Positions 55,012 through 60,363 of a DNA stretch of 64,000 nucleotides are shown here, piece after piece (the first letter of the stretch is position 1; each line of letters begins with the position of its first letter). Under the pieces are notes generated by a model. That model was not told where the DNA came from. It was given only the letters and a program-made list of their open reading frames with translations, and searched no databases. A program made the position numbers and the translations under genes. Source of the DNA: Trichothermofontia sichuanensis B231. GTDB lineage: Bacteria; Cyanobacteriota; Cyanobacteriia; B231. The DNA lies in NCBI RefSeq assembly GCF_026240635.1, contig NZ_CP110848.1:64501-128500 (forward strand). Reading direction: 5' to 3'.

Positions 55012-55230
55012 ATGGCTGTTGAAAAAGTAAACTCTTCGTCGAGCTTGGCAGAAGTGGTCGATCGCATCCTGGACAAGGGGATTGTGGTTGATGCCTGGGT
55101 GCGGGTTTCCTTGGTAGGGATTGAACTGCTCGCCGTTGAGGCGCGGATCGTGATTGCTTCCGTGGAAACCTATCTGAAGTATGCCGAAGCGGTTGGTTTG
55201 ACGGCCCAAGCGGCGGTTCCCGCTGCCTAA
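55012..55230 (+). CDS. gvpA: Gas vesicle structural protein GvpA
   Basis: The 72-residue protein starts [20 protein letters not shown] and continues [40 protein letters not shown] and [12 protein letters not shown]. This is nearly the universal GvpA sequence, a helix-beta-beta-helix unit that polymerises as ribs into the gas vesicle wall. GGAG lies before ATG 55012. It is followed after 409 bases by gvpC. Only one gvpA copy is present here, while some cyanobacteria have several in tandem. Confidence 0.98.
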
Positions 55231-55639: not shown

Positions 55640-57112
55640 GTGGCTCTCAAGGATGTATGGCAGGCTGCACGGCAACAACGACAACAGGAAGTCCAAACGC
55701 GGCAAGCAGAGGTTCGTCAGCAGTTAACGACGATTCAAGCCCAACTGCAACAGGAGGCGGAGCAACTGCGGACCGATTTGGGCCTGTTTCGGTTGGGGCT
55801 GGCTAGTGAAAATCGGGCACGACAGACCCAATTCCAGCAGGTGCGCAACGCTTTACAACAGTTTCGCCGATCGCTCCAGCAGGAAACCCAGGCATTTCTG
55901 GGTGATGCACACCAGCAACGGCAGCAGCAGGCGGCGATGACAGCCCGAGATTTGGATGAATTTGTGCGTCTCCTTAAGGCTGACACCGCCCAGTTCCTAT
56001 CCGATTGCGCCGCTGAACGGCAGGCCGCCGCCGCCGCCGTTGCCAAACAACTGCAAGCCTTTGTGCAAGCCCTCAGACAGCAAACAGCGGAGTTTCTGGC
56101 GAGTGCGGCGGCCAATCGGCAAGCGATGGCGGCAGCCCTGCTCCAACAACTGGATGACTTTGTGCGATCGCTCCAGGTCCAAACCGCCCAATTCCTTACC
56201 TTGACAGCCCAGGAACGGGCGCAAATGGCCGAAGCGCTGATGCAGTCTCTAGGGGATTTTCGCGCCCGCTTGCGGGAGACAGTGGCGGATCTGCGCCAGG
56301 ATTTGCAATTGGATATTACGGAAATCCAGGCCCGTGTGGCCGTGTTACGGGCTGAGACCCAAACCTTTCTGACTGATACTCACGCAAAACGGCTCAAAGA
56401 TCAGGCCGAATTGCTCCAAACTCTGGCCACCTATTACCAATCCCTGCAAACCGATGTTGAGGATTATCTGGACGAACTGGCCCTGATCCGGCAAGCACGG
56501 GCTAATCAGGTCCACCGCTCCCTGGCCCAAAGCCGCCGCGATCGCGAAGCTGCTGTTGCTGAGCTGTTCGATCGCTTTGCCCGATTCCGGGCCGAGCTGC
56601 AAGCCTTCCGGGCCAACTTGGCTCACTACGTGTGGGGAACGGGAACCCCCCTGCCCGAACCGCCCCCCCTACCGCCCAAGGCAGCAACCAAACCCGTGGT
56701 CTCTGCCCCACCGGCTCAGGCCCAAACCCCGCCGGCAGCCCCTGCCAAACCTGCTCCGCCTCCTTTGACGCCGCCCCCTGCCAAAACAGTTACCCCACCC
56801 CAGCCAGAAGCTGTGACCCAGGTAGAATTTACGCCCCCGCCTACCCCGAACCCTGCATCGGCAGCCATCGCTCCGGAGCCGCCCCCGGCCCCGGCTCCGC
56901 CTGCTGCCCAGTCAGACTCCGCTAAGTTAGACTCTGCCAATGCTGTTTACGATTATCTGAAAGCTTGCCAGGGGGCGCGGTTGGCCCAGATTGAAGCAGC
57001 CCTAGGAGCTAGCCGGGTGCAAACGGTGAATGCGTTGCGATCGTTGATTGAACGCGGCATGGTTACCCAGCGTGATCGGATTTACTATATCAACGGAGGA
57101 GCTGAAGCGTGA
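55640..57112 (+). CDS. gvpC: Gas vesicle protein GvpC with proline-rich linker and C-terminal winged-helix-like domain
   Basis: The 490-residue protein starts [20 protein letters not shown] at GTG 55640. Four contiguous 33-residue repeats run 82-213 (starting ETQAFL, DTAQFL, QTAEFL, QTAQFL), with a fifth at 239-271 and diverged ones around them. GvpC repeats bind the outside of the GvpA ribs and stiffen the vesicle. Residues about 345-427 are a Pro/Ala linker. The last 55 residues ([47 protein letters not shown]) look like a winged helix, matched at the end of GvpN. Classical GvpC is about half this size and lacks the tail. The stop overlaps gvpN as GTGA. Confidence 0.88.
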
Positions 57113-58617
57113 CCACGATTCTGCAAGCGCGATCGCGCGGATTTGTCAGCACACCGTCAATTGAACGGTTAGTCACCCGCGCCCTACGGTACTTACAATC
57201 GGGATTTTCCGTGCATCTGCGGGGTCCTGCGGGTACGGGTAAAACCACCCTCGCCATGCACTTGGCTGATCTCCTCGGTCGTCCGATCATGTTGGTGTTT
57301 GGGGACGACGAGTTCAAGACCTCGGACCTGATTGGGAACCAGTCGGGTTATACCCGCAAAAAAGTTGTCGATAACTATATTCACAGCGTCGTCAAACTCG
57401 AAGACGAATTACGTCAGACCTGGGTGGATGCTCGGTTAACCCTGGCCTGCCGGGAAGGCTTTACCCTCGTCTACGATGAGTTCAACCGCTCCCGCCCGGA
57501 GGTAAATAATGTGCTCCTGTCGGCGTTGGAGGAGAAGCTGCTGGTGTTGCCGCCGACGGCCCAGCGCAGCGAGTATGTGCGGGTCAATCCCCACTTCCGG
57601 GGCATTTTCACCTCGAATCCAGAGGAATACTGCGGTGTGCACGGCACCCAGGATGCCCTGATGGACCGGTTGGTGACGATTAGCGTCCCAGAACCGGATG
57701 AACTGACCCAGCAGGAAATTCTGGTGCAAAAGGTGGGCCTCGATCGCCCCGGTGCCGCCACGATCGTGCAACTGGTAAAAGCCTTTCGCAACCAGGCCAA
57801 GGTGGAAAAATCCTCCGGCCTGCGGTCCTGCCTGATGATCGCCAAGGTGTGCCACGAACACCAGATCCCGATTACACCCCTCAATGCGGACTTCCGTGAC
57901 ATTTGCAGTGATATTCTGCTGTCCCGCACTGGCATTAGCCTGGAAGAGGCCACCACCCTGCTGTGGCACTGCTTGAATGAAATGGCGAGGCAGGAAACTG
58001 AGGCCACACAGGTACCCGGACGTTCGTTGGAGTTGGAAGCTCCCCAGGAGCCAGGTCTGGCTCTGGTCAACACGGATAGCGAGGATGAGGATCTCGAAAA
58101 CGAGGATCGCAACGCGGACCTGGCGGACCTGGATGGAGAGCCGCTGGCGATCGCCCATGAAACCCCAACCCCTCCCCCCCCCGAGCCCGAGCCAGCCCCC
58201 GTTGCCCAAAAACCTGCTAAACGGACCTCACCAACACCCAAACTGGCGTCGGCTGTGCCCACAGAACCGAAGCCGCTTGCCCCACCAGCGGTGGCGACTG
58301 AGACAGTAACTGAGACAACGACGATCGCCCCAACAGCGGTTGAGCCAGCGGCTGAGCCAGCGGTTGCTTCGGAAGTTCCACCAGCAGCCATCCCCGATTA
58401 TCCCCAGGCCGTTTATGAGTACCTGATTCAGCAGCGGGAGGCCCGGTTAACCGATATTGAGCAGGCGTTGAAACTTAGCCGTGTCCAGGTTGTGGATGCA
58501 ATTCGCACCCTGTTGGCAACCGACCTGATCTTGAAACATCGGGATGGGCCGGAAACGCGGGAGGGGGGAAAAACTCGATACCGTGTTAATGTTGCTCCAG
58601 AGGATACGGAGACGTGA
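57109..58617 (+). CDS. gvpN: Gas vesicle AAA+ ATPase GvpN with proline-rich linker and C-terminal winged-helix-like domain
   Basis: The 502-residue protein starts [20 protein letters not shown] at GTG 57109. The AAA+ core has Walker A GPAGTGKT (39-46), [20 protein letters not shown], Walker B TLVYDEFN (119-126), [20 protein letters not shown] and the sensor region [20 protein letters not shown]. It ends near 300. An acidic then Pro/Ala/Thr-rich linker follows, and a C-terminal domain at about 434-495 ([40 protein letters not shown]), like that of GvpC. GvpN is usually 300-370 residues. It acts in vesicle assembly and enlargement. Confidence 0.92.
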
Positions 58618-59066
58618 GCACCGTGACCCAAGCCCGATCATCGACTGCGACCCCGCGTACCATTACCACCGCCACCCAAGGGTCTACCCTGGCGGACATT
58701 TTGGAGCGGGTTCTGGATAAAGGGATTGTGATTGCGGGGGATATTTCAGTGTCCGTCGGTTCGACCGAGTTGCTCAGTATTCGCATTCGCCTGCTGGTGG
58801 CCTCGGTTGATAAGGCGCGGGAAATGGGGATCAACTGGTGGGAAGGCGATCCCTTCCTGAGTCACCAGAACCAAACCCTGCTGGCGGAAAATCAGCAGTT
58901 ACAGCAACGCTTAGCGGCGTTAGAGTCGCAGCTAAAGGCATTGCAACAGGCCAGTGAAACTCCGTTAGCAGCAAATCCAGCCGCAGTGGCGACAATGACC
59001 GAATCTGCCCAAGCGGCTCCCCCGCGATCGCCCCCCTCAGAGGCATCTTCACCGGACATGGGATAA
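58614..59066 (+). CDS. gvpJ: Gas vesicle protein GvpJ
   Basis: The 150-residue protein has the GvpA-like core [40 protein letters not shown] and [20 protein letters not shown] at 22-85. The WW after the core is typical of GvpJ. A coiled coil follows ([20 protein letters not shown]), then a Pro/Ser/Ala tail. GvpJ is a minor shell protein probably in the conical caps or in nucleation. Start GTG 58614 overlaps the gvpN stop as GTGA, so the three genes are translationally linked. Confidence 0.95.
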
Positions 59067-59295: not shown

Positions 59296-59493
59296 ATGAT
59301 CACGGTAAAAACCCTCCGTCATGTGGCTAATGCCCGTGTGATTCGCAGTTTCCGATCGTGTCCTAGTTGGCGGCGCTTAGATACCCGCAGCAGCGATCGT
59401 GCCCGCATGGCAGCCGGTATGGCCCAGATCCTTGCCCAGGAAGCCCGTCGCCAATGGTGCCAACTCAACTGGCAACAGCGGCCCAATAATTAG
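59296..59493 (+). CDS. Small basic protein, 65 residues, within the gas vesicle cluster
   Basis: The product starts MITVKTLRHVANARVIRSFR and continues SCPSWRRLDTRSSDRARMAA, GMAQILAQEARRQWCQLNWQ. It is rich in Arg and Trp and predicted helical in the second half, without membrane segments. The frame opens at a TTG 21 bases upstream, but ATG 59296 is more natural. It is not clearly related to known Gvp proteins; a small basic protein in a gvp operon may be an accessory factor. No strong ribosome binding site was seen, so its status is open. Confidence 0.5.
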   Translation: MITVKTLRHVANARVIRSFRSCPSWRRLDTRSSDRARMAAGMAQILAQEARRQWCQLNWQQRPNN

Positions 59494-59608
59494 AGAATCG
59501 TGTCTAGTTTTGAGCACATTAGTTTTGCCTTTTGCCTTTTGACTTCAACCCCCTATTACCTGTTCCCTGTCCCCTATCCCCTATCCCCTTCTCCCTAGAG
59601 GTTACGCC

Positions 59609-59887
59609 ATGAGTGCTAAAAATCCCCCCCTTTCCTCCGAAGCCTATCGACAAATGCTGGTTAAAGATGGCGAACGGCGGTTTCGGGAATGGCATGGTGA
59701 TTTTTTGCGCCATCAACAGGCATTTCGGGCTTCTCTGGCCGCCCAGCGCGATCGCTATATTCCGTCAGAAACCTATCGGCAGATGCTGGTTAGAGATGGC
59801 GAACGGCGGTTTCGGGAATGGCATCAGAATTATCTGAACTATCAAAAGCAATATCTGACTGAATTGGCCGCAAGTCGTCGCTCGTGA
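59609..59887 (+). CDS. Two-repeat protein in the gas vesicle cluster, position of gvpX
   Basis: The 92-residue protein consists of two 43-residue repeats. The first is SSEAYRQMLVKDGERRFREW with HGDFLRHQQAFRASLAAQRD, the second PSETYRQMLVRDGERRFREW with HQNYLNYQKQYLTELAASRR. The DNA of the two repeats is almost identical over about 60 bases (59644-59703 and 59773-59832), so the duplication is recent. Each repeat should be a pair of helices, with conserved YRQML, ERRFREWH and an aromatic heptad. As I recall, Anabaena has a gene named gvpX between gvpJ and gvpK; this may be its counterpart, but I cannot show homology. It overlaps the gvpK start by GTGA. Confidence 0.7.
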   Translation: MSAKNPPLSSEAYRQMLVKDGERRFREWHGDFLRHQQAFRASLAAQRDRYIPSETYRQMLVRDGERRFREWHQNYLNYQKQYLTELAASRRS

Positions 59888-60363
59888 TCCCCATGAGTGC
59901 TTCCCTGGATTTATCAGAATCTACCCCCCTGGCCACGCCCCGTCAAAATCAGGAGGCTGGCTTAGCACCTTTGTTATTAACGGTGGTCGAACTCATCCGG
60001 CAATTGATGGAAGCCCAGGTGATTCGGCGCATGGAGGCAGGACTATTGTCGGATGCGGATTTGGAGCGGGCTGCCGATAGCCTGCGGCAATTGGAAAATC
60101 AGGTTATCCAACTCTGCGAAATTTTTGACATTGATCCGGCTGATTTGAACATTGATCTAGGTGAAGTGGGATCGCTCTTACCAAAAGAAGGGGGGTACTA
60201 TCCTGGCGAAACGAGCGATCAGCCTTCGTTGTTGGAATTGCTCGATCGCCTACTGCATATCGGCGTTGTCCTCGAAGGTGACATTGACCTTGGACTTGCC
60301 GAGTTGAGTTTAATTCAAGCCAAGCTCCGCCTAGTCTTGACCTCCCGTCCTGTTGGGGCTTAA
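59884..60363 (+). CDS. gvpK: Gas vesicle protein GvpK
   Basis: The 159-residue protein has the full GvpK core: GLAPLLLTVVELIRQLMEAQ, VIRRMEAGLLSDADLERAAD, SLRQLENQVIQLCEIFDIDP, ADLNIDLGEVGSLLP and SLLELLDRLLHIGVVLEGDI with DLGLAELSLIQAKLRLVLTS. GvpK is an essential minor protein of vesicle formation. A start at GTG 59884 overlaps the previous stop by GTGA, the same arrangement as in gvpN and gvpJ; ATG 59893 is the alternative. It is the last gvp gene seen. No gvpF/L or gvpG follows within 3 kb. Confidence 0.95.
   Translation: MIPMSASLDLSESTPLATPRQNQEAGLAPLLLTVVELIRQLMEAQVIRRMEAGLLSDADLERAADSLRQLENQVIQLCEIFDIDPADLNIDLGEVGSLLPKEGGYYPGETSDQPSLLELLDRLLHIGVVLEGDIDLGLAELSLIQAKLRLVLTSRPVGA

Follow-up and report, generated by a model that had tools for sequence, protein, structure and literature searches.

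EWH, a candidate family of small helical gas vesicle accessory proteins in cyanobacteria

A short gene in the gas vesicle cluster of Trichothermofontia sichuanensis B231 belongs to a cyanobacterial protein family that is probably undescribed and missed by present flotation-gene lists. We name the family EWH, after the invariant E-W-H of its repeat unit, for which the consensus is SExYRQMLVRDGxRRFxEWHxxFLxYQxxFL. Its members are probably functional gas vesicle accessory proteins that have been overlooked and that often lie outside the cluster. That EWH is a gas vesicle protein of some kind is very likely; the particular reading preferred here, a helical module that docks on the shell or on the complex assembling it, would have a probability of about 0.5. 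The two-unit repeat of the protein in this genome is incidental, and the valuable finding is the family.

The window, a stretch of 64,000 nucleotides, comes from the single 4.44-Mb contig of this genome, the sole representative of its order in our sample. It carries, all on the forward strand, gvpA, gvpC, gvpN, gvpJ, a small reading frame here called ORF Y, the EWH gene and gvpK. Pfam and NCBIfam scanning identified gvpA (55012–55230) and the GvpA-like gvpJ (58614–59066). The gvpC gene (55640–57112) matches TIGR02641 above the cut-off (26.9 bits) and encodes degenerate 33-residue repeats followed by a C-terminal winged-helix-like tail, and gvpN (57109–58617; TIGR02640, 8.8e-119) likewise ends in such a tail. 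ORF Y (59296–59493, 65 aa) is GvpX-like, sharing the N-terminus MITVKTLRHVANARVIRSF with the Microcystis protein encoded between gvpJ and gvpK. The EWH gene (59609–59887) starts with ATG behind a GAGG-like stretch (TCCCTAGAGGTTACGCCATG) and encodes 92 residues. Downstream, gvpK (59893–60363) includes a C-terminal Gas_vesicle domain (PF05121, 1.6e-32; PF00741, 4.3e-12). The place of the EWH gene between gvpJ and gvpK, recognised by PF00741 and PF05121, agrees with a preliminary description of this DNA, made from the letters alone, that put it within a gas vesicle operon. The same description had the gene overlapping the gvpK start by GTGA, which depends on a GTG start at 59884 and is probably wrong. 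Because an ATG lies 7–15 nucleotides past the EWH stop in 8 of 16 other loci whose post-stop stretch was inspected, and because in the window the ATG at 59893, the probable start, opens gvpK with MSASLDLSES, a gap of five nucleotides is likelier than an overlap.

Several minor features accompany the cluster. The tails of GvpC and GvpN give HTH_IclR and TrmB matches and are similar in sequence, which hints at a common or copied C-terminal domain. Frames that join gvpK to an A domain, as in the window, recur in other genomes. Two gvpF/L-type genes lie far from the cluster, at 1626110 and 2218566 of the genome, and a C-rich, tandem-like short stretch (CCCTATCCCCTATCCCC) occupies 59545–59596 between ORF Y and the EWH gene.

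As had been described, the 92-residue protein consists of two 43-residue units, and ERRFREWH and YRQML are present in both. In the DNA the units correspond to two direct copies of 112 nucleotides on the forward strand (59631–59742 for unit 1 and 59760–59871 for unit 2), offset by 129 and 77% identical. The two units share the same residue at 24 of 41 positions over their whole length. Over 34 residues their identity is 59%, against 76% between unit 1 and unit 2 of Microcystis and 85% between unit 2 and a Halothece unit. Since each unit is nearer to one from another genus than to its sibling, the duplication is not called recent here; the earlier wording to that effect is weakly founded, and, judged by sequence, the two first halves are nearly identical mostly through family constraint, the whole family keeping that half. 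The DNA copies are nevertheless more alike than the protein sequence forces. At 22 positions with a shared degenerate residue, the codon is the same at 15, whereas local codon usage would predict 8.2 (P = 0.0025), a hint of copying or local conversion.

No Pfam or NCBIfam model matches the window protein, and no consistent family was found among the 42 aligned members scanned. A search of a class-wide sample of 388 genomes gave matches in 60 with the single window protein and in 64 with a profile of 31 units; both window units match the profile (1.3e-24 and 2.2e-22), of which they were themselves rows. We count the 59 genomes with strong matches (E < 1e-15), thus excluding the weak matches in G029, G043, G056, G153 and G226 (E 0.002–0.01) and in G269 (E 0.0047, single-protein search). 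A short-pattern scan of named genomes returned 57 loci, partly on the same contigs as the class sample, in Microcystis, Planktothrix, Pseudanabaena, Trichodesmium, Okeania, Rhizonema, Hassallia, Scytonema, Iningainema, Leptolyngbya, Halothece, Roseofilum and others. Ten columns (S, E, Y, R, V, D, G, R, E and W) are invariant in 31 aligned units, and the same pattern of conservation is seen across 94 distinct units. Purifying selection acts on the Pseudanabaena gene (mean pN 0.078, mean pS 0.44, pN/pS 0.18), with pN equal to or above pS in none of 231 pairs. Its shortness and the lack of a family model would suit a chance open reading frame at 59609–59887, but the 94 distinct units, the ten near-invariant positions and the pN/pS ratio leave that explanation a negligible probability.

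A five-unit Trichodesmium protein reaches 23.9 bits against FRAT-87 (NF045479), for which the cut-off is 50, and the match was taken as chance; none of the 42 aligned members and none of the 388 class genomes matches that model, with the controls silent too, and the term FRAT-87 was not found in the literature searched. No EWH relatives were found among the viral contigs, plasmids and phages searched. The openly accessible literature on gas vesicles, Microcystis and Pseudanabaena, which takes in few of the subscription papers, yielded no description of an EWH protein. No homology to a characterised Gvp protein was detectable either, and the earlier description was right that no function is known for this family.

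The co-occurrence of EWH with gas vesicle genes is near-absolute. Genes of the Gas_vesicle family are present in 58 of the 59 EWH-positive genomes and GvpN in 57, and each is present in all 52 with completeness of 90% or more and contamination no higher than 5%. GvpK occurs in 56 of the 59, as against 175 of the 388 genomes in the class sample (Fisher P 1e-18, not corrected for phylogeny). The exception is G259, an EWH-positive genome, 85% complete, in which no gvp gene was found. Gas vesicles themselves can do without EWH, as no match to it is seen in 119 of the 175 class-sample genomes that carry gvpK.

Physical linkage is less regular. It was scored over 59 EWH loci (58 fetched, plus the window) as the presence or absence of a gvp gene within 8 kb. 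Such a gene is present in 17 loci and the window, one of them (L118) having only a lone extra copy of gvpA, and absent from 41; a linked copy is found in 13 of 26 genera, counted by hand. The preliminary description had held that homologues lying mainly outside gvp clusters would tell against its view of the family. Taken literally this is the case, in 41 of 59 loci, yet this does not refute a gas vesicle role, since gvp genes, mostly scattered, are still present where the EWH copy is unlinked and since the gene decays where gvpN is gone, as set out below. Where both gvpK and gvpN could be placed in genomes with an unlinked copy, they are on different contigs (in a draft genome no proof of distance) or far apart in 28 of 29, the exception being G006, and the gvp set itself is therefore scattered. 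In the one-contig genomes G004, G051 and G078, EWH, gvpK and gvpN are hundreds of kilobases apart. Unlinked copies have no constant non-gvp neighbour across genera, their neighbours being ordinary housekeeping genes. Two separate EWH loci (L144 and L150) of Planktothrix rubescens PCC 7821 encode near-identical proteins, with gvp genes near neither.

Pseudanabaena, in which serA and prmC flank the EWH gene and gvp genes lie elsewhere, offers a natural test. Among 26 genomes searched, 22 carry EWH and 23 carry GvpN, and the three that lack GvpN (G184, G218 and G238) all lack EWH (P 0.0015); the fourth without EWH, G314, has GvpN and is 82% complete. G218 is identical to G184 over the inspected serA–prmC stretch, and as the two are apparent sisters, the losses look like two events rather than three. 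The serA–prmC sites of G238 and G184 retain broken EWH remnants and the terminator, with local alignment scores of 87–134 against a shuffled maximum of 30, to which serA and the terminator contribute part. Absence and remnants of the gene in gvpN-lacking genomes therefore indicate a real gas vesicle role. EWH is thus found in genomes that carry gvp genes and seems to disappear when these do, with G259 and G245 as exceptions. G245 combines an intact EWH gene with a gvpN interrupted by an internal TAA and a partial gvpK; the cluster seems to be decaying, and the case is either one of recent decay or an exception to co-loss. The same evidence bears on the reading that EWH is a regulator or a general factor of the buoyant lifestyle that merely co-occurs with gvp genes. 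In favour of that reading are its frequent position beside housekeeping genes, unlinked to gvp genes, and the tyrosine/dual-specificity phosphatase domain fused to it in G289 and G305; the near-absolute co-occurrence, the decay with gvpN loss within one genus and the lack of any predicted DNA-binding fold make it highly improbable.

Among linked loci no gvp gene is a constant partner of EWH. The order J-Y-EWH-K is found in the window and in several Leptolyngbya-like genomes, whereas Nostocales loci read A-(C)-N-Y-EWH and have K and J divergently oriented, on the opposite strand. In Microcystis a two-unit EWH gene lies upstream of gvpA, and in G127 and G188 the cluster is split, EWH-K-F standing together apart from gvpA-C-N-J. 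EWH is directly 5' of gvpK in the window and in at least ten loci. These arrangements raise the alternative that EWH may be an assembly adaptor whose partner is an accessory protein (GvpK, GvpJ, GvpN or GvpF) rather than the shell. The company of gvpK and gvpF in the split clusters and the recurrent position before gvpK point that way, as do the prevalence of single-unit proteins of low mass and the charged invariants (RDG, RR and E), which suggest a specific partner. The Nostocales loci, where EWH follows gvpN and Y with K and J on the opposite strand, and the Microcystis gene, which precedes gvpA, count against it, and on balance we take the adaptor to be possible, if on the unlikely side. 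In the Rhizonema and Scytonema loci L130, L131, L132 and L142, gvpA is directly followed by gvpN, with no gvpC match between them, and then by Y and EWH.

The number of units per protein varies. Counting them by genome, as proposed in the preliminary description, gives single-unit proteins only in 53 of 59 and two units in six, a minority form spread over several lineages, with both in one protein in the window, G007, G087, G097, G265 and G270; G326 has two single-unit genes, and weak extra matches in G075, G097 and G271 were inspected. Named Halothece records have two units, one of them cut short, and Trichodesmium MAGs have arrays of two, four and five, those of four to five units (L163, L170 and L178, the last with masked bases inside the array) having a period of 35. 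The number is one in Pseudanabaena and Planktothrix, two in Microcystis and the window, and four to five in these Trichodesmium MAGs. The periods observed are 35, 36, 43, 46, 47, 49, 51, 54 and 55, that of the window being 43. In Nostocales and Okeania-type proteins the one unit precedes a long conserved tail; the tails of the Okeania and Hydrocoleum proteins score as a degenerate second unit. Two MAGs of a single genus have the unit N-terminal to a tyrosine/dual-specificity phosphatase domain (L117, 5170–5973, and L119, 7923–8639, the latter with a PTP-SAK match of 5e-16). G097 also encodes a weakly related EWH-like paralogue (L180, 2201–2638) with four repeats of exactly 33 residues, away from gvp genes.

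AlphaFold predicts helices at residues 10–49 and 53–91 of the window protein, one for each unit (mean pLDDT 88.7, pTM 0.40), and five helices of 31–38 residues in the five-unit Trichodesmium protein, at low confidence (pLDDT 63). Conservation and hydrophobicity of the unit show a modest periodicity matching the helix (P 0.03 each). Searches of solved structures gave nothing convincing with the EWH profile (best E 0.2) or with the GvpC of the window, and a fold search gave one meaningless match (E 8.9). The predicted helices and the modest periodicity are the basis on which we propose the docking module. Each unit would be one long amphipathic alpha-helix of about 35–40 residues, with a capped start (xSE/DSE) and a strongly conserved aromatic face (Y, L, F, W, F, Y, F), lying on a conserved and repeated surface of a gas vesicle component. 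The most likely target would be the shell of GvpA/GvpJ type or the complex that assembles it, and docking may help shells to form, grow or hold, with two or more units giving stronger, multivalent binding. What the computations show is the family, its conservation and purifying selection, its co-occurrence with gvp genes, its decay in genomes lacking gvpN and the predicted helices; binding to a Gvp protein, the identity of the partner and the effect are what we infer. Against the proposal count the 41 loci with no gvp gene nearby, the gvpK-positive genomes that have no EWH, the intact EWH gene of G245, the want of a constant gvp partner, the low pTM, the lack of a homologue among solved structures and the modest periodicity. 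A more specific version, in which EWH is a second, GvpC-independent class of shell-binding repeat, one helix per unit clamping the GvpA lattice and unit number tuning strength or width, and in which the family was omitted from gene lists because it is often far from the cluster, is tentative and would have to be called rather unlikely as it stands.

GvpC, which strengthens the shell from outside (TIGR02641, PF01304), invites comparison with EWH. Both are helical (EWH by AlphaFold prediction) and found in gvp clusters, EWH being small, with a repeat number that varies by lineage and with helices in tandem in the multi-unit forms. EWH differs in its period of 35–55 as against 33, which is seen only in the weakly related G097 paralogue, and in its unit, which is far more conserved, often single, and coexists with a separate gvpC. 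TIGR02641 and PF01304 match neither the window protein nor any of the 42 aligned members. EWH might still be a true relative of GvpC, a circularly offset and shortened form of its repeat that coats the shell. Both consist of helical repeats of variable number, the period is 35 in the Trichodesmium MAGs and equals that of GvpC in the G097 paralogue, and by eye the EWH pattern H1xxF4...F11L12...R19...F/L30, W/F33 can be aligned with the Anabaena/Calothrix consensus given in the accessible part of PMC5259702. Four sequence tests nonetheless fail to support this attractive register. The hhalign probabilities are only 1.2 and 1.0; a doubled GvpC model matches no EWH protein at E 1e-2; the predicted register ranks second of 33 offsets, with permuted columns doing equally well (P 0.36); and a reversed profile scores higher. 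A separate gvpC moreover stands beside EWH in several genomes, the window included. Kinship with GvpC is accordingly improbable, and the docking module, as a family of its own, is preferred.

EWH shares its operon with the GvpA/GvpJ/GvpM family (PF00741) but has no match to that model. The GvpX, GvpY, GvpZ, GvpW and GvpV of Serratia, as described in the accessible part of PMC4982088, are likewise accessory proteins of gvp clusters with function unknown, the likeness drawn here being one of description.

Gas vesicles serve as engineered ultrasound reporters, and in the accessible part of PMC10344784 many gvp genes are said to have little or no annotation, to lie possibly hundreds of kilobases from the cluster and perhaps to be uncloned. 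EWH fits that description: its conservation extends from Pseudanabaena to Microcystis, Planktothrix and Trichodesmium, half of the genera have it unlinked, and no family model covers it. The Planktothrix study PMC5259702, in its accessible part, lists gvpA, C, N, J, K, F/L, G, V and W, with no EWH-like gene among them; the EWH gene is present in three Planktothrix genomes. Should EWH have a part in assembly or strength, its addition could explain or remedy the poor expression of cyanobacterial clusters. The question of a gas vesicle role is directly testable with the family and with Pseudanabaena strains that carry or lack it.

One further comparison leads to ORF Y. The preliminary description had suggested setting the window protein against Anabaena GvpX; in the accessible part of PMC9501494, a table shows no gvpX for A. 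flos-aquae and gvpJXK for Microcystis. The Microcystis counterpart, identified by position from the accessible parts of PMC6362013 and PMC9501494, resembles ORF Y and not EWH. Like it, EWH is a small gene between gvpJ and gvpK in the window, but Microcystis carries one of each, with GvpX between J and K and EWH upstream of gvpA. EWH as a GvpX of the Microcystis type was therefore rejected, the GvpX match going to ORF Y, in the form of a weak N-terminal match (E about 1e-3 in a small database). ORF Y, with the N-terminus MITIRTMKQIATSRTIPSFRS, represents a second undescribed small family linked to gvp genes. Its place in many loci is after gvpJ or gvpN and before EWH; in L041, L045, L048, L049 and L055 it occurs without EWH.
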